Of a stretch of DNA of 64,000 nucleotides, positions 34,523 to 44,974 are shown piece by piece. Source of the stretch: Sulfitobacter sp. SK012 (GTDB taxonomy: Bacteria; Pseudomonadota; Alphaproteobacteria; Rhodobacterales; Rhodobacteraceae); the NCBI RefSeq assembly GCF_003352085.1, contig NZ_CP025804.1, positions 2,356,001 to 2,420,000 on the forward strand, read 5' to 3'. The notes under the pieces are model-generated. The model did not search any database. It was not told the DNA's origin and saw only the letters and a list, made by a program, of their open reading frames with translations. Every line of letters begins with the position of its first letter. Positions within the stretch are counted from its first letter, which is position 1. The position numbers and the translations under genes are program-made.

Positions 34523-34596
34523 GCGGGTATGGTGAAAAGGTATCACGGCAGCTTCCCAAGCTTTAGTTACGAGTTCGATTCTCGTTACCCGCTCCA
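34523..34596 (+). tRNA. tRNA-Gly (anticodon CCC)
   Basis: The acceptor GCGGGTA pairs fully with TACCCGC and the T arm ACGAG/CTCGT is perfect, with a TTCGATT loop. The anticodon loop TTCCCAA carries CCC and the CCA end is encoded. The anticodon stem GCAGC/GCTTT contains one C-T mismatch and one G-T pair, but I recall the same sequence from related roseobacters, so it is likely functional. Confidence 0.93.
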
Positions 34597-35249: not shown

Positions 35250-37184
35250 ATGCGGCTATTAAATGTGTTTGCCTGTACCCTCACATGGGCTTCGTTTGCG
35301 AGCGCAGGCGTTTCTGCACAGAATACGCCTTCACTTGACGGCCTGAAAAATCCATTTCAGGAACGGCCATATTCTCCTTATGCTGATCGCAGTTTTCCCA
35401 CGAATGTCTATTTTGGCGATACCCACGTCCACACCGCCCTTTCAGCGGACGCAGGTGGGGGCGGCACGCGTCTTTTGCCGCGCGACGCTTACCGCTTTGC
35501 ACGAGGCGAGCAAGTCACATCCAATACCGGCCAGCCAGTGCGCCTGTCTCGGCCGTTTGATTTCTACATGATCACTGATCATTCAGACGGCATGGGAGCG
35601 ATTACTGACATTATCGGCGGCGCGCCTAACATTCTGGCCGACCCTCAGGGAAGAAAGTTCAATGAAGCTTTCAACAAGGGCGGAGATGAAGCACTCAAAG
35701 CGGCGCAAGAGCTGGTTGGCCTCTTTGGTCAAGGCACCCTATCGCCGGCGTTGAATTACCAACCGGGCAACCCCGCCTACAAACGCGTCTGGGATGATAT
35801 CGTCGCTGCTGCGGAAGAGTTTAACGATCCCGGTAAATTCACGACATTCATTGCATACGAATGGACGTCGTTGGTGAGGGGCAACAACTTGCACCGCAAC
35901 GTGATCTATCGCGACGGGCCAGAACGGGCCGGCCAAATTGTTCCCTATACAACCACACCGCCTATTGGTTCACCAAATCCGCGAGATCTTTGGACGTGGC
36001 TGCAGAATTATGAAGACGTAACCGGGGGTGACGTGTTGGCCATTCCACACAATGGAAATGTGTCCAACGGGATGATGTTTGCCCTGCAGGACGATTTTGC
36101 AGACGGTGCACCTTTTGATGCAGCTTATGCGGAGGCCCGAGAAAAGTGGGAACGTCTTTACGAATCCAACCAAATGAAGGGCGATGGCGAAGCGCATCCT
36201 TTGTTGTCCCCAGAGGATGAATTCGCGGATTTCGAAACGTGGGACTATGGTAACCTCGACGCAAGCGAGAGAAAGACCGTTGACATGCTGCCGGGCGAAT
36301 ACGTGCGTTCCGGACTGCAACGCGGTTTGATGCTGCAAGAAGCGCTGGGGACTAACCCGTTCAAATTCGGGCTGGTGGGCGCTGCAGATACGCATACCGG
36401 TCTTTCGACGCCCGATAACGACAATTTCTTCAACAAATTTACCGCCTATGAGCCCAGCCCGGAGCGCGCAACGCACATCAGCAGAAAATTCGCGGATGGA
36501 ACGGTCGCTTTGAACACCTATCAGTACATCACATCCGGTCTGACAGCTGTTTGGTCGACTGAAAACACACGCGGTGCACTCTTTGATGCGATGGAGCGGC
36601 GCGAAGTTTATGCAACGACGGGCGCCAGAATGCGCGTGCGCCTGTTCGGCGGTTGGGAATTTGATACAGCAGATTCGCATCGCCGCGATCTGGCCCTGGT
36701 TGGGTATTCAAAGGGCGTGCCAATGGGCGCTGACTTGATGCCAGACACCGGCAATGTCGGATCCCCGAGTTTTTTGATGTATGCGTTGCGTGATCCGATG
36801 GGGGCAAACCTTGACCGGGTTCAAATTGTTAAGGGCTGGGTCAATAATGATGGAACACCGGGTGAACGGGTCTATGACGTGGCGTGGTCTGATGGGCGAA
36901 CGCCCGGTGCGGATGGCAAATTGCCCCATGTCGGCGATACCGTGGACCTATCGGTTCCGGCTTGGACGAACACCATAGGCGCGTCCGAACTTGGAGGCGT
37001 TTGGACTGATCCTGATTTCAATCCTGATCACCGGGCGTTCTATTATGCCCGTGTGATTGAAATTCCGACACCGCGTTGGACGGCGTATGACCGGGTCAAA
37101 TACAACTTGGACCTGCCGGACACTATCCCCCTCAAAGGTCAAGAACGGGCCTATACTTCGCCAATCTGGTACACACCTGAATGA
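35250..37184 (+). CDS. DUF3604 exported protein (first copy)
   Basis: This 644-residue protein starts with a signal peptide (MRLLNVFACTLTWASFASAGVSAQ). The DUF3604 body starts YFGDTHVHTALSADA, with His residues resembling a PHP-type metal site, then DFYMITDHSDGMG, LAIPHNGNVSNG and GLVGAADTHTG. The end is AFYYARVIEIPTPRW and SPIWYTPE. The ATG has GAAGGAGATGAAGCC ahead. A longer start at 35166 is rejected. It looks like a periplasmic metal-binding hydrolase. A paralog lies 1.07 kb downstream and both flank an outer-membrane protein. The substrate is unknown. Confidence 0.85.
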   Translation: MRLLNVFACTLTWASFASAGVSAQNTPSLDGLKNPFQERPYSPYADRSFPTNVYFGDTHVHTALSADAGGGGTRLLPRDAYRFARGEQVTSNTGQPVRLSRPFDFYMITDHSDGMGAITDIIGGAPNILADPQGRKFNEAFNKGGDEALKAAQELVGLFGQGTLSPALNYQPGNPAYKRVWDDIVAAAEEFNDPGKFTTFIAYEWTSLVRGNNLHRNVIYRDGPERAGQIVPYTTTPPIGSPNPRDLWTWLQNYEDVTGGDVLAIPHNGNVSNGMMFALQDDFADGAPFDAAYAEAREKWERLYESNQMKGDGEAHPLLSPEDEFADFETWDYGNLDASERKTVDMLPGEYVRSGLQRGLMLQEALGTNPFKFGLVGAADTHTGLSTPDNDNFFNKFTAYEPSPERATHISRKFADGTVALNTYQYITSGLTAVWSTENTRGALFDAMERREVYATTGARMRVRLFGGWEFDTADSHRRDLALVGYSKGVPMGADLMPDTGNVGSPSFLMYALRDPMGANLDRVQIVKGWVNNDGTPGERVYDVAWSDGRTPGADGKLPHVGDTVDLSVPAWTNTIGASELGGVWTDPDFNPDHRAFYYARVIEIPTPRWTAYDRVKYNLDLPDTIPLKGQERAYTSPIWYTPE

Positions 37185-37245
37185 CTGGCGCAGTCGGGTA
37201 ATATTCGTATTATTATTATTTATTAGATTCAGTAGGCGGCTTAAG

Positions 37246-38235
37246 ATGCAACAATCGACAAACTACAAATTGGGCGCATTCTGTATGGCAGCATGCCTTT
37301 CAATCTCAGCTCCTCAGGCGCACGCCTTAGAGGGTGGTACGTCGGCCTATCTGCTTGGCTCGCGTGATAGCTTTGCCGGGATTGTGCCGGGAGCTGGGAC
37401 CTATGTGGGTATGGATTTTATTACCTTTTCGGGCAGTATTGCTGGGTTGTCCCTCGGTGGTTTGCCAATTGCTGCAGACACGGACGTCGATGTGAACCTC
37501 ATCAAACTGAGTTTCACCCATGTTTTTGGATCCACCCTCTGGGGTGGTACGCCAGCGCTTAACCTCAATATTCCGATTTTGGACGCCGACATTGGCTTTC
37601 AGGCCATCTCAGGTCCTTTGGCAGGCGATGATATTTCCGATGAAACAAGCGGGATCGGCGACATCACGATAACACCGATGGTGGGGTGGCACAGTGGCAT
37701 GCTGCACTACAGCGCCGGGCTGTCTATTTTTGTCCCAACCGGAAGCTACAGCACGGCGTCTGTCGACATACCAGGGCGGAGTATTGATGCGCTCAGCAAC
37801 GGCAAAAACATCTGGAGCATACAGCCCGTTCTATCGATGACCCATTTCAATCCAAAAACTGGGCGAGAATTCTCGGGGGCGACTTCTTTCCTGTTCAGTG
37901 AAAATAATGAAGCGACCGACTACCAGACAGCACCGGCTTTTACCCTCGAAGCCACAGCGATGCAGCATTTGCCATCAGGGTGGGCCTTTGGCGGCTCGGG
38001 ATATTGGTATGAGCAGTTGAAAGACGACAGTGGCACCGGTGCCGACAATACCCGCGCAGCATTGGGTGTCGACAGCCTGCGTTCACGTGCATTTGGGCTG
38101 GGCCCAATCATCACATACAGTGATGAAATGTTTGGCCGCCCAGTTTCCTTCAAGCTAAAATACTACAAAGAGTTTGGCGTAAAACGCCGTTTTGAGAGCG
38201 ACGTCTTGTGGTTCAACGCCACAATGACATTTTAA
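37246..38235 (+). CDS. MetA-type (phenol degradation pathway) outer-membrane beta-barrel protein
   Basis: This 329-residue protein has a signal peptide (YKLGAFCMAACLSISAPQAHA) and then repeated amphipathic strands with Gly/aromatic ends (GIGDITITPMVGWHSG, FGLGPIITYSDEMFG). It ends KRRFESDVLWFNATMTF, the aromatic C-terminus typical of beta-barrels. It resembles the COG4313-type MetA/SphA family associated with hydrophobic compound uptake. I start it at 37246, after AGGCGGCTTAAG. It sits between two DUF3604 genes with gaps of 61 and 20 bp, so all three form an operon. The cargo is inferred only. Confidence 0.8.
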   Translation: MQQSTNYKLGAFCMAACLSISAPQAHALEGGTSAYLLGSRDSFAGIVPGAGTYVGMDFITFSGSIAGLSLGGLPIAADTDVDVNLIKLSFTHVFGSTLWGGTPALNLNIPILDADIGFQAISGPLAGDDISDETSGIGDITITPMVGWHSGMLHYSAGLSIFVPTGSYSTASVDIPGRSIDALSNGKNIWSIQPVLSMTHFNPKTGREFSGATSFLFSENNEATDYQTAPAFTLEATAMQHLPSGWAFGGSGYWYEQLKDDSGTGADNTRAALGVDSLRSRAFGLGPIITYSDEMFGRPVSFKLKYYKEFGVKRRFESDVLWFNATMTF

Positions 38236-38255
38236 CCTGACCGACGGGGATAACG

Positions 38256-40058
38256 ATGATGAAAATTGCATTCTTGACAGCTTCAGCACTCGTGGCGGCC
38301 ACCTTTGCCGCCCACGCGCAGGAAGGATCCAATCCGCTTCGAAATGCATATTTCGGCGAGACACACATGCACACAGCCTTGTCGCTTGATGCCTATATCG
38401 GCGGAGCCCGGTTAATGCCTTCCGACAGTCTGCGTTTCGCCAAGGGCGAGTCGGTTCTGGTAAACGGCCAGCACAAGCAATTGCGCCGGCCTTTGGATTT
38501 TGCCGCCGTGACCGATCACGTCGAATATCTCGGCGAGATGTATTCAACGATCTTTCCCGATGCGCCCGGACACCAGCAGGATGACCTCATAAAGCTGCGC
38601 GGCCTGCAAAGCCTTGAGGAAAAACAGCAGTGGTTTTTCAAATACGTCGTTTCCAACAATCGCGGTGATAACCCAAGCCATCCGCCGTTCTACATGGGCC
38701 CTGAAACCACTGCGTCAGGATGGCAGATCATTATTGATGCCGCCGAGGAACATAACGATCCCGGAGCCTTTACCGCGTTGATCGGTTTTGAATGGTCCGC
38801 AGCCCCCGGTGGCGGGAATATGCACCGCAATGTCATTTTCCGCGACAACAAGGTCCCTGCCCTCCCGCTGTCCAGCTACGACACTAACAAAGTCGAAGAG
38901 CTTTGGCAGTGGATGCAAAAAACCACTGATGAAGATGGCGCGACACTTTTGGCGATCCCTCATAACTCAAATGCGTCAAAGGGACAGATGTTCCCCGAAG
39001 TAGACAGCTACGGGAACGCGATTGACCTGGAATACGCGACCGCCCGCAATACCTGGGAACCGCTGATCGAGATGATGCAGATCAAGGCGAATTCCGAAGT
39101 TCATCGCAGCTTTTGGACAGCGGATGAATTTGCCGATTTTGAGAATGGAGACACCATTCAGAAAAACTCCGACCGTTGGTTCTCAAAGCGTGATTTTGTT
39201 CGCGAAGGGTTGAAGATTGGCCTAGCCTACGAGCAAGAACTGGGCACCAATCCATTTCAGTTGGGCTTTATCGGTGGAACAGACAATCACAACGGTCTGA
39301 CGTCTGATGTTGCCGAGGATGACTTCATCGGCGGCCACGGGCCCGAAGACGGAAGCGTTGAGCGTCGCCGCAAAGCTGGTGTTGGTGGTTGGATTGATGG
39401 GGTGGACCTTTCCATCGGGTCAATCGCCGGCGTCTGGGCAACCGAAAATACCCGCGCGGCGATCTGGGATGCGATGAAACGGCGCGAGACTTTTGCAACG
39501 TCCGGCCCTCGGCTCAAAGTGCGTATGTTTGGCGGCGCTGACCTGAACCCAACGGTAGATGATCCGGTGGCGATGGTCGAAGACGGGTATTCAAAGGGCG
39601 TGCCTATGGGCGGCATGCTCGAGAAAAGCGATAACGCACCGACCTTTACCCTCTACGCCGAGAAAGACGCTGATGGCGCGAACCTTGATCGCATTCAGGT
39701 CATTAAAGGCTGGGTAACAGCCTCGGGTGAAACACAAGAAAAGATCATTGATGTCGTCTGGGCAGGTGATCGTGCGCGAAACGACAACGGTGCGCTCCCA
39801 CCGATCGGCAACACGGTCGATCTGACAACGGCGCTCTATACCAACGACATCGGCTCAGCCACTCTTGTCGGAAGCTGGTCAGATCCTGATTTCGACCCTG
39901 ATCAACATGCGTTTTACTACGCCAGAGCGTTGGAAATTCCGACGCCGCGCTGGACAACCTACGATGCTGTCAGGAATGGCTTGCCGCTCTTGCCCGAAGT
40001 TCCCGCGACGATTCAAGAGCGCGCTTGGACTTCTCCAATCTGGTATTCACCCAACTAG
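38256..40058 (+). CDS. DUF3604 exported protein (second copy)
   Basis: This 600-residue protein with signal peptide (MMKIAFLTASALVAATFAAHAQ) starts the DUF3604 domain with YFGETHMHTALSLDAYIGG, then DFAAVTDHVEYLG, LAIPHNSNASKG and IGGTDNHNGLTS. The C-terminal block RALEIPTPRWTTYDA and RAWTSPIWYSP parallels the first copy, indicating an ancient duplication. GGGGATAAC precedes the start; the second ATG (38259) is an alternative. An unprocessed or truncated feature is not seen. The PPIase and HupE-like gene remains behind it suggest the operon once ran longer. Confidence 0.86.
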   Translation: MMKIAFLTASALVAATFAAHAQEGSNPLRNAYFGETHMHTALSLDAYIGGARLMPSDSLRFAKGESVLVNGQHKQLRRPLDFAAVTDHVEYLGEMYSTIFPDAPGHQQDDLIKLRGLQSLEEKQQWFFKYVVSNNRGDNPSHPPFYMGPETTASGWQIIIDAAEEHNDPGAFTALIGFEWSAAPGGGNMHRNVIFRDNKVPALPLSSYDTNKVEELWQWMQKTTDEDGATLLAIPHNSNASKGQMFPEVDSYGNAIDLEYATARNTWEPLIEMMQIKANSEVHRSFWTADEFADFENGDTIQKNSDRWFSKRDFVREGLKIGLAYEQELGTNPFQLGFIGGTDNHNGLTSDVAEDDFIGGHGPEDGSVERRRKAGVGGWIDGVDLSIGSIAGVWATENTRAAIWDAMKRRETFATSGPRLKVRMFGGADLNPTVDDPVAMVEDGYSKGVPMGGMLEKSDNAPTFTLYAEKDADGANLDRIQVIKGWVTASGETQEKIIDVVWAGDRARNDNGALPPIGNTVDLTTALYTNDIGSATLVGSWSDPDFDPDQHAFYYARALEIPTPRWTTYDAVRNGLPLLPEVPATIQERAWTSPIWYSPN

Positions 40059-40537
40059 CTGATTTGGAGTCAAATAGCACTATTTTGGAAAGAGCCTTTG
40101 GCTCAATTCCCCTTTTTGGGTGGTTTGTTGTTTGCGATCTAAACAGGGTTTGTACCACAGACAGAATCCCAAAAGGAACGCATTGTCGTGGATGCGCCAA
40201 GGGTCGACAGGCTTGTTTAGAGATTTGAGACGGTGTGAAAACGCCCGCCCACTGCATCTGAACAACAAGGGTTGATCGACGACTTTTTAATTGAAGAGGT
40301 GTCTTACCGGGAGGCATGAAAACGCGACCTTGGAGAGGATGGCGTTGTGATCCGGCGACGCAAACGCCAGGAAATAGAGTTTCTTCCTCAGGATTGACTT
40401 GCACAGACACCACCCGAAGAAGGTGACCTCGTGGCGTTTTTGAAAATGATCTGACGCAAAACAGCTGATCTGACCGTGTGTCCCGGCGCCCGTTTTATCT
40501 TGTCTAAGGGGCCACCACCGCCGGAAATGCCGATGCA
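40059..40537. other. Intergenic stretch without recognised genes
   Basis: I read both strands for remains of the missing N-terminal part of the peptidyl-prolyl isomerase that follows, and found none recognisable. Short frames on the minus strand (for example 40287-40550) have no similarity I know. The sequence may be debris of a deletion or of an unrecognised mobile element. Confidence 0.5.
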
Positions 40538-40900
40538 TTGCTGCCCACATTGAACGCCAAGCCGGAACCAGACACGCAAAGCCTCGGCAAACGCTCGATG
40601 CTACCTCAGCGTGTTTTAACGGCCTTGGCGGTTGGAATTGAGGGACTGTTCGGCAGCGGTTTTGACCAACTATTGTTGGACCTTCCCATCAATAGTTGGG
40701 TTGGGCCCGTGCCGTCGGGTTTTGGCCTGCATTTGGTAACTAGGGATGAAATCCAGCATGCACCGCGGGTAACATTTGAAATGGCGCGCGACGCGGTTAC
40801 CCGAAACTACCGATATGATCAGCAGCGCAAGGCAACTGAGGCCTTGGTCGAGAGATTAGAGCAGCACTATGTGATTGAGCTTGATGATCCAACCCAATGA
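40538..40900 (+). pseudogene. C-terminal remnant of a periplasmic peptidyl-prolyl isomerase
   Basis: The 120 codons read as the C-terminal end of a parvulin-type PPIase: SLGKRSMLPQRVLTALAVGI, then DLPINSWVGPVPSGFGLHLVTRDEIQ, the WxGPVxSGxGxHLV block, and VERLEQHYVIEL at the end. The signal peptide and most of the domain are missing, and the first codons (MLPTLNAK) look fortuitous. Such PPIases commonly precede HupE/UreJ-type genes, and a HupE-like relic overlaps its stop by four bases. I treat it as a 5'-truncated pseudogene. Confidence 0.72.
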
Positions 40901-41313
40901 TCAGGCGGATCCCGGGTGCAATTTTTTGGTTTGGTTTGTCTGGTGTTTTTGCCGCTATTGGCTGAGGCTCATGAGGTACGGCTCGGCCTCTTGCATCTTC
41001 ATGAGAAGCCACCCGACCGATTTGAGACAATGTGGCGCGTGCCTGCGCGGGGCGAATAGGCTTGCGCCTCAATACACACCGGTTTCCCGATACCTGCGAG
41101 GCTGTTGGGCTTCCTGACAGGGTCCACGACAGCATTCGGCGCGAAGAACGACACGAGATCGTCTGTACAGGTGGGCTGGCGAATGCGCAGATCAGTATTG
41201 AAGGTCTGGAAAGGGTTCAAACCGATGTATGGATGAGTGTCATCTACCTCCGTGGCGGGACCGAAACACGCCGTGTAATGCCGCAGAACCGCTCCGCAAT
41301 CCTTCAGTGCTAA
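40897..41313 (+). pseudogene. Frameshifted N-terminal remnant of a HupE/UreJ-like protein
   Basis: Three frames together give the exported N-terminal domain of a HupE/UreJ-family protein. Frame one is MIRRIPGAIFWFGL. A shift near a T-run at about 40920 gives VCLVFLPLLAEAHEVRLGLLH and ETMWRVPARGE. A second shift near 41045 gives RIGLRLNTHRFPDTCEAVG and CTGGLANAQISIEGLERVQTDVW. The multi-pass membrane half that normally follows is absent. Two frameshifts and a missing 3' half make this a decayed gene. It overlaps the PPIase stop as ATGA, as an intact operon would. Confidence 0.72.
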
Positions 41314-41896
41314 CGTAGCTTTCTATAGGTTGCTGCAACCTACTTCACCTTGGGTCTTGAACACATCCTTCTTTGCATTACTGCGGATTCTTTGAACCGT
41401 AGAGCGAACACAGGCCATTTGAGAGTAATAAGATGATAGTTTTCCCTTTGGCGGCAAGTCATCTAAAAGCTCTCTGCCGAAACTATCGAGACTTGTCAGC
41501 TGGCTGTGAATGAAATTTGCGGATCTTAAATTTCGTTCCGGTTTTCCCGGCGGTGCCTAAGGACATCTAATGATTTCAAGTATTGAGCTGAATGGTGACG
41601 ACTAGACTGAGCCAAAATCCGACCTAATGCAGCACGATGAACAAACTGCAGCAGTGCGGAAACGGCAATGACACGACGGATCGTCTTGTCAATGTTCGGT
41701 TTAAGGTGGCAGTGCAGTTCGAAACTGTAGCCGGAAAGCAAAGCGGCCTCGAACTCTGACATTTATAGCGGATTGGCAGGAACCGGCTTTGTCCACATTG
41801 CTGCAATTGATGCAACTAACAGCTACCGTCGGCAAAAGCAGTCTAGGCTTTGCCTCGATGTCGATCTATTCATAGGAAAATTAACGAGGTCAAATC
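41314..41896. other. Intergenic stretch after the HupE-like relic
   Basis: I see no convincing gene. A 78-codon minus-strand frame (41526-41762) has no recognised family, no good ribosome site and a composition unlike neighbouring genes. The stretch likely reflects loss of the membrane part of the HupE-like gene. Confidence 0.5.
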
Positions 41897-42184
41897 ATGC
41901 ACCGCAGCGCGCTTACCGTCATCTTAATGCTTATGCTCGTCGCGAGCTGCAGCGACTTGGTTGCTGATCGTACAGTGGTCGAGCGGACTGGTCCGGACGA
42001 ATTGCTGAAACTGAGGGCCGGTCCTGGGCTTGATTATAGCGTAGTCTTGGGCTTGCCTGACGGGACTAGGCTCAATCGTCGCAACTGCGTAACAGAGGAG
42101 GGTCAGCTCTGGTGCGAAGTCTCGCTCGCGGACGCACCAGCGATCAAGGGTTATGTCTCCGCCGATTACCTTTCGGAACGCTAG
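41897..42184 (+). CDS. SH3-domain lipoprotein
   Basis: This 95-residue lipoprotein has a signal sequence MHRSALTVILMLMLVASC with a lipobox (LVASC, acylated Cys18). The rest is a bacterial SH3 domain (LLKLRAGPGLDYSVVLGLPDGTRL, WCEVSLADAPAIKGYVSADYLSER). TTAACGAGGTCAAATC precedes the start. It is anchored in the envelope and may bind peptidoglycan. It stands alone between a decayed region and the minus-strand AIM24 gene. Confidence 0.84.
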   Translation: MHRSALTVILMLMLVASCSDLVADRTVVERTGPDELLKLRAGPGLDYSVVLGLPDGTRLNRRNCVTEEGQLWCEVSLADAPAIKGYVSADYLSER

Positions 42185-42351
42185 CTTTAGTCTGCTACCG
42201 CTGAATGCCGCGTTGAGCATTGTCGGCGCAAACCCGTTTGAACGGAACTTGGTGCACCCAGAGAGAGCTTTTGACTTTTATGGCCGAGTTGCAGAACAAA
42301 GCTGAACTCAATGGAATACACGCTCGAGATAGCTACCCGTTTGAACATGTT

Positions 42352-43847: not shown

Positions 43848-44011
43848 GTTTCCGTCAATCCGCCTTGTGGCAACTCTTTGACACTAATTTGTCCATGGTA
43901 GTTTGAAACAATTTCAATTTGTCGGAAAGGGGTTTTTTGACCGTGGACGAGGTGTCATTTCCAAACTAACCTCTCCCAGTCCGAATTGGAATTCTAAGGT
44001 TAGTATTGGGA

Positions 44012-44974
44012 ATGAAATTCTTCTTATCAGCTCTTGTTGTGGCTTCATGGGCGACTTCGGCCAATGCCGAGAATTTGACCTTCATAAACATAGGTTCAGG
44101 TAGCCTTGATGGTGGTTATTATCAAACGGCCAAAGCATTGTGCTCTTCAATAAACAGCGAAAACAGTGGAAGTGTCAGGTGCAGCCCGGAACCCACAAGT
44201 GGGTCCGTCTATAATTTGCGGATGCTACAAGCACGAGAGCTTGATTTCGCTTTTGTCCAGTCTGACTGGCAACTTGCGGCATACAAAGGCACTGGGTTGT
44301 TTGAAGGCGAGAAAATGTCGAATTTGCGCAGTGTGATGTCGCTCTATCCAGAGGCCGTTACAATGCTTGCAGGTCGAGACAGTGAAATTTTTCGATCGCA
44401 GGACATTCCGGGCAAGAAAATTGACATTGGCTTGGCATCCTCCGGGCGACATGCGACCGCCAAAGAGGTACTGCGTCGAGCAGGAATGAATGTAGCTGGC
44501 TATCGCGGATTTTACGAGCTGACAGTAGAGCAATCAATTCGAGGACTTTGCGACGGCACAATCGATGCTTCATTCCTTGTTTTGGGACATCCGTCAGAAC
44601 TTGTTGAGCGGGCGCTGTCAGAATGTGGCGCCAGAATAATTGCGCCATCTGGCCCTGTTTTGACCCGCGTATTTTCAGAATCTAAAGGCTTCGTCCCAAT
44701 AACGATCCCAGCAGATACATACACAAACCAACTTGGTGAAATTGATACCTACGCGGTCTATGCAACGTTGGTCACCCGGGCCGATATGGCGTCTTCCGAA
44801 GTTGCGATCGTCATCGAGAGCACATTGGAAAACCTCGATAGCCTAAAGGCCCAAATATCACAGCTTTCCGGACTAAGCTGGAAAAACATGGCGACGCAGG
44901 GCCTTAGTGCACCGCTCCATCCCGCATCGTCGGTTGTTCTGGAAAATATCCAGAAAAAAGCCGCTGGAAATTAG
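44012..44974 (+). CDS. TAXI-family TRAP transporter solute-binding protein, orphan
   Basis: This 320-residue protein has a signal peptide (MKFFLSALVVASWATSANAEN) and the TAXI binding-protein body: INIGSGSLDGGYYQTAKALC at the N-terminus, CSPEPTSGSVYNLRMLQARELDFAFVQSDW and VMSLYPEAVTMLAG. No TRAP permease subunit is adjacent, so it may serve a distant permease or act as an extracytoplasmic sensor. The ATG at 44012 is preferred to the TTG two codons earlier. The 5' region contains the inverted repeat CTAACCT...AGGTTAG (43967-44004), which may be a leader hairpin. Confidence 0.88.
   Translation: MKFFLSALVVASWATSANAENLTFINIGSGSLDGGYYQTAKALCSSINSENSGSVRCSPEPTSGSVYNLRMLQARELDFAFVQSDWQLAAYKGTGLFEGEKMSNLRSVMSLYPEAVTMLAGRDSEIFRSQDIPGKKIDIGLASSGRHATAKEVLRRAGMNVAGYRGFYELTVEQSIRGLCDGTIDASFLVLGHPSELVERALSECGARIIAPSGPVLTRVFSESKGFVPITIPADTYTNQLGEIDTYAVYATLVTRADMASSEVAIVIESTLENLDSLKAQISQLSGLSWKNMATQGLSAPLHPASSVVLENIQKKAAGN

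Follow-up and report, generated by a model that had tools for sequence, protein, structure and literature searches.

The DUF3604 cluster and its decayed tail

The window analysed here is a stretch of 64,000 nucleotides (C1:2356001-2420000) within the 5.18-Mb genome of Sulfitobacter sp. SK012, and it carries an envelope gene cluster built around DUF3604, a protein family with almost no literature of its own: in a search that left most subscription papers uncovered, the word turned up in a single paper, where it labels a Chlamydia gene in a table, and the accession PF12228 was not found. Two exported DUF3604 paralogs, Da and Db, flank an outer-membrane channel, and remnants of a peptidyl-prolyl isomerase (PPIase) gene and a HupE-like gene follow them (Table 1), an arrangement that an earlier sequence-only reading of this DNA had proposed and that our searches bear out. 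The three intact reading frames are open, run in one direction and are spaced by 61 and 20 bases, from which we infer that they probably form a single transcription unit. Their start codons were picked by eye, and their N-termini, also read by eye, look like Sec-type signal peptides. Gene calls throughout are longest-open-reading-frame guesses, and Pfam was run on representatives only. The channel clearly belongs to its family (139 bits against a curated PF13557 cut-off of 22), while its sequence match to 4rl8 reaches an E-value of only 0.4; barrels of this family are described as 12-stranded, with a proposed lateral opening.

Table 1. Genes and gene remnants of the DUF3604 cluster (positions in the window)
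Feature	Position	Strand	Evidence
Da, exported DUF3604 protein, 644 aa	35250..37184	+	PF12228, 770.8 bits
COG4313/PF13557 outer-membrane channel ("MetA"), 329 aa	37246..38235	+	PF13557, 139 bits
Db, the other exported DUF3604 protein (600 aa), whose starred clade is separate and channel-linked	38256..40058	+	PF12228, 710.5 bits
PPIase gene relic (parvulin type, membrane-anchored) with frameshifts and in-frame stops	about 40068-40897	+	tblastn, profile match
HupE/UreJ_2 gene relic, limited almost wholly to the N-terminal domain (metal-binding type)	about 40931-41370	+	tblastn

The remnants are real, and the tail of the cluster has decayed locally. When positions 40056-42300 were searched by tblastn with the PPIases and HupE proteins of related loci, scores rose to 78.2 bits for the PPIase and 50.1 bits for HupE, compared with 25.4 bits for the best of 20 triplet-shuffled controls. 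The PPIase relic is spread over several frames, its profile match falling into two pieces with five stops in the first and one in the second. The HupE relic extends slightly beyond 41313, where the sequence-only reading had closed the cluster, and breaks off soon after the membrane domain begins; nearly all of that domain is gone, and a profile search of the window gave no match to PF13795. Taken singly, the open reading frame 40538-40900 scores 23.0 bits against Rotamase_2, under the curated cut-off of 27, and 41032-41313 matches nothing in Pfam or NCBIfam. The remnants nevertheless match the families expected of them, and they are arranged as in intact sets elsewhere, with the PPIase before HupE.

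DUF3604 as a predicted metallohydrolase

Structure prediction presents DUF3604 as an exported metallohydrolase with the fold that defines the PHP superfamily, followed by a C-terminal immunoglobulin-like (Ig-like) sandwich, placed at about residues 460-644 of Da. The histidine motifs that had been noticed as resembling a metal site proved to belong to four motifs with nine candidate metal ligands, all invariant in the 45 aligned DUF3604 proteins. The residues follow the order found in the phosphodiesterases No-PDE and Sb-PDE, as assigned by motif order and not from superposed coordinates. The best structural match is 3E38, and the closest folds are annotated as phosphoesterases; among the 45 proteins no PHP family of Pfam appears in the matches, and the cut-off of no named PHP family is reached.

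A different chemistry has to be weighed at this point, in which DUF3604 would be a CehA/McbA-like PHP amidohydrolase acting on carbamates, amides or carboxylic esters in compounds that are aromatic or resemble xenobiotics, and not on phosphoesters. CehA_McbA_metalo is the NCBIfam model matched by more members than any other (12 of 45, best E 4.7e-4), hhalign gives a probability of 90%, over 59 columns, for an alignment of DUF3604 with CehA-like proteins, and relatives of the channel occur near aromatic-degradation genes, according to the accessible text of PMC4493636. These scores are weak, however, and both the phosphoesterase annotation of the closest folds and the sulfatase-family partners described below favour phosphate or sulfate esters, so that we regard an amidohydrolase as unlikely.

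A recurring pair of putative helpers

Gene order was compared in 80 named loci, the best 80 of 581 confirmed DUF3604 loci, several of which share an organism. The earlier suggestion that PPIase and HupE genes are common neighbours of DUF3604 holds: both are present in 38 of the 80, adjacent and codirectional in 37 of these 38, with a DUF3604 gene within 1.5 kb of the PPIase in 31. The loci with both helpers include Pseudomonadota, Thermodesulfobacteriota, Verrucomicrobiota, Bacteroidota, Campylobacterota and one cyanobacterium, so that the conserved DUF3604-PPIase-HupE set, which the sequence-only reading had suggested looking for, exists across phyla. Other genes recur beside DUF3604 in the same 80 loci, namely type-I sulfatases (15 loci), AraC regulators (12), DUF1254/DUF1214 (6) and the channel (5). 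In Desulfosediminicola, two DUF3604 genes, a sulfatase, the channel, the PPIase and HupE follow one another on one strand. A further recurring protein of about 260 aa, with no Pfam match and a 91% hhalign probability to COG4313, is likely a second barrel distantly related to that family.

The association was then followed in 100 genomes of the family, 299 of the phylum and 14 controls, none of which (0/14) matched DUF3604. At an E-value of 0.001, DUF3604 matches occur in 16 of the 100 family genomes, full-length in 11 and as weak partial matches in five. The PPIase was sought with a profile made from PPIases encoded beside DUF3604 (35 of the 38 linked ones listed), whose rows come from six of the 11 full-length genomes (G000, G013, G036, G038, G043 and G092), the other five having contributed none. 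Matches of at least 288 bits appear in exactly these 11 genomes; two others (G008 and G083) have matches of about 182 bits, and the remaining 87 have nothing at E 1e-20. All 14 strong PPIase matches of the family sample adjoin a HupE gene. Since PF13795 in general is found in 60 of the 100 genomes, the presence of HupE alone is not diagnostic. In the phylum sample, DUF3604 (E 1e-50) and the PPIase (at least 190 bits) each occur in 17 genomes, of which 16, spread over ten families, are common to both. The odd genomes are G395, with a partial DUF3604 match in two pieces of 190-219 bits and no PPIase, and G433, where a PPIase-HupE pair directly follows a C-terminal stump of DUF3604. PPIase matches of 76-79 bits in G364 and G508 were treated as background. 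Fisher values for co-inheritance are 7e-15 and 2e-24 in calculations that ignore shared ancestry.

The little-studied DUF1254 family (PF06863) is distributed in a similar manner, being present in 13 of the 100 family genomes: all 11 with DUF3604 (in G036 as a single partial match, E 2e-8) versus two of the 89 others, and therefore it probably belongs to the same metabolism.

The pair lies near a DUF3604 gene in seven of the 11 family genomes, and in the other four (G005, G031, G057 and G073) it sits elsewhere, unlinked from any detected DUF3604 copy. Genomes hold one or two pairs versus 1 to 11 DUF3604 matches. The unlinked pairs bear on the view that DUF3604, the pair, DUF1254 and the sulfatases have no functional dependence and merely travel together on transferable catabolic islands. 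The distribution is indeed patchy (11 of 100 family genomes), G055, the sole congener sampled there besides SK012, has no DUF3604 match, and a tRNA gene (34523-34593), where a mobile island might have inserted, stands just upstream of the cluster. Yet the pair is retained although unlinked in four of 11 genomes, the adjacency of the helper genes is kept over several phyla, and the only phylum genome with a PPIase and no counted DUF3604 still has the stump, all of which make co-travel alone improbable, the least probable of the explanations that we considered.

The pairs of about 182 bits in G008 and G083 show no DUF3604 trace within the stretches fetched, and that of G008 adjoins LutABC-like and other HupE genes. 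We take them for a diverged paralog group, which means all the same that a pair can exist alone. The G008 locus reads, in order, LutABC-like genes, the diverged PPIase-HupE pair and two HupE_UreJ genes. An apparent PPIase-HupE fusion in G083 was rejected, the 747-aa open reading frame matching only HupE in Pfam.

The HupE-like partner and the rest of the genome

Intact HupE partners have the PF13795 membrane domain with conserved His/Asp motifs (170.5 bits in the L036 copy), which the relic in the window lacks. In the L036 numbering, His155, Asp161, His162, His190, His250 and Glu280 are invariant in 42 of 42 proteins, two poorly aligned rows (18-20% identity) having been left out. The predicted fold of the N-terminal domain tentatively matches ZrgA and Ang-1, for which an Ig-like sandwich as in 9gce is expected, and at the position expected to become N-terminal after signal cleavage, with the site placed by eye, 33 of the 42 have His and nine have Asp.

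The accessible text of PMC12537917 names HupE-type proteins as nickel permeases and proposes that Ang-1 domains catch metal that is to be taken up. Together with the tentative fold match, these proposals lend some weight to a scavenging role, in which the pair would not mature DUF3604 at all and HupE would import a metal freed when DUF3604 and its partners degrade a metal-binding organic compound. Scavenging would leave the PPIase without a role, though pair and enzyme co-occur tightly, and one or two pairs for up to 11 DUF3604 matches are a better fit to a helper; we therefore doubt it.

The genome of SK012 has nine DUF3604 matches, that is, seven besides Da and Db, and four to PF13795. One intact DUF3604-PPIase-HupE set lies at 1.15 Mb (C1:1147958-1151644). 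A PF13795 copy at 2.54 Mb is surrounded by DUF4198, PfkB and Indigoidine_A, the setting published for Ang-1 (PMC12537917, in its accessible part); the DUF3604-linked HupE is 40% identical to this copy in the membrane domain, and the N-terminal domains have no significant BLAST similarity. Two more HupE genes are each preceded by an open reading frame of 490-599 aa without Pfam match. A second COG4313 gene of the genome (C1:728000-745000) has no DUF3604 beside it; its neighbours are five DUF1254 genes, one AraC-type and one sulfatase-type gene, and the gene for the 260-aa barrel, which together make up a sister envelope cluster. Downstream of the DUF3604 cluster, the window also holds a gene for an NMT1_3 (TAXI-type) solute-binding protein (44006-44974), relatives of which occur near another DUF3604 copy.

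Db and the channel as a sub-module

DUF3604 and channel genes co-occur elsewhere, and it is the Db subfamily, not DUF3604 generally, with which the channel is associated. In a tree that omits L101, L131 and L154, which repeat EL53, as well as proteins shorter than 560 or longer than 800 aa, and that has long branches for L122, L065_7231 and L153_7970, Db falls in a clade of four, all of them near a channel gene, although the channel-near label is scattered over the whole tree (15 rows, 12 changes). Orthologs of Db with at least 60% identity were found at ten loci in nine of 394 family genomes searched, a possible undercount, with at most three candidates scored per genome. A channel relative, 45-66% identical to that of the window, lies within three genes of Db in nine of the ten loci, and a further DUF3604 gene does so in nine as well, at one of them (L259, in G604) only as a 229-aa fragment. 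This last locus, with a DUF3604 fragment, sulfatase, Db, second barrel, channel, PPIase and HupE in one direction, resembles the window with its tail intact, and it is the sole one of the ten with intact helpers beside Db. Db and the channel are thus a sub-module of their own. Along with the predicted PHP fold, the partnership with sulfatases and DUF1254 and the seven further DUF3604 copies, this adds to what had been noticed in the window before.

A proposed envelope hydrolase system with helpers in trans

We lean, if only slightly, towards an envelope hydrolase system in which DUF3604 works with the channel and depends on a dedicated folding and metal pair acting in trans. Da and Db would be Sec-exported PHP-superfamily hydrolases needing several metal ions, probably zinc, and with the channel they would handle an amphipathic compound in the periplasm as well as at the outer membrane. 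Phosphoester hydrolysis is their most likely reaction, and the S1-family sulfatases of sister loci hint at mixed phospho- or sulfo-esters as substrates. Combining, by analogy, the amphipathic role proposed for COG4313, the precedent of PHP diesterases and the sulfatase partners suggests a phospho- or sulfo-ester amphiphile. Of the lipid-like or aromatic substrate put forward earlier, the first part agrees with the hydrophobic or amphipathic role of the channel family in the accessible text of PMC4493636, while "aromatic" gains no specific support.

In this system, the membrane-anchored PPIase may help DUF3604 enzymes to fold, and the HupE-like protein, with its putative metal-binding sandwich, may supply or handle their metal. 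Because four genomes keep the pair unlinked and an intact pair persists here at 1.15 Mb, it probably works in trans; if it can, one or two pairs would serve many DUF3604 paralogs, and the loss of a second, local pair in the window would be harmless, with the pair at 1.15 Mb taking over. The same two observations leave the idea that the remaining front of the cluster acts alone without support. More tentatively, and short of an even expectation, DUF3604, the parvulin PPIase and the HupE-like protein could constitute a system, so far undescribed, by which exported multi-metal enzymes mature, with a membrane folding-plus-metalation pair acting in trans for a paralog family in several phyla.

Little is understood of how Sec-exported enzymes that need several metal ions acquire them once they have left the cytoplasm. 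DUF3604 gains its first testable function from its predicted fold, its complete set of candidate metal ligands and a putative helper pair that is inherited with it almost without exception; if our proposal is right, a dedicated PPIase and metal-handling pair offers a clean model for such metal supply, and the genome of SK012, with one pair decayed and another surviving, lends itself naturally to testing action in trans.

Comparison with known systems

The nearest described enzymes are Sb-PDE and No-PDE, zinc phosphodiesterases of the PHP family (PMC5460133, PMC11656708). DUF3604 shares with them the predicted PHP membership and the order of the nine ligand residue types, and with Sb-PDE the Sec-type export reported for it; moreover, 3E38 is the single solved homologue named for Sb-PDE. 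Unlike Sb-PDE (441 aa), DUF3604 proteins are longer (600-644 aa), and unlike both enzymes they have the predicted C-terminal Ig-like domain and dedicated partners, and lie below the cut-off of every named PHP family.

The channel, like SphA, TcpY and Pput2725, matches PF13557, and its hydrophobic or amphipathic cargo is the role proposed for the COG4313 family as a whole; in the accessible part of PMC4493636, a partnership with a DUF3604 subfamily is not described for these proteins.

Finally, the N-terminal domain of the DUF3604-linked HupE is, judged by its sequence, Ang-1-like and not Ang-1, because the His that signal cleavage leaves at the N-terminus, which is reported to be 100% conserved in the anglerase domain (PMC12537917), is replaced by Asp in nine of 42. 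The accessible text of that paper contains no word starting with "peptidyl" and lists other neighbours for Ang-1: where HupE/UreJ-2 proteins with Ang-1 stand beside DUF4198, PfkB and Indigoidine_A, the HupE described here stands beside a PPIase and DUF3604.
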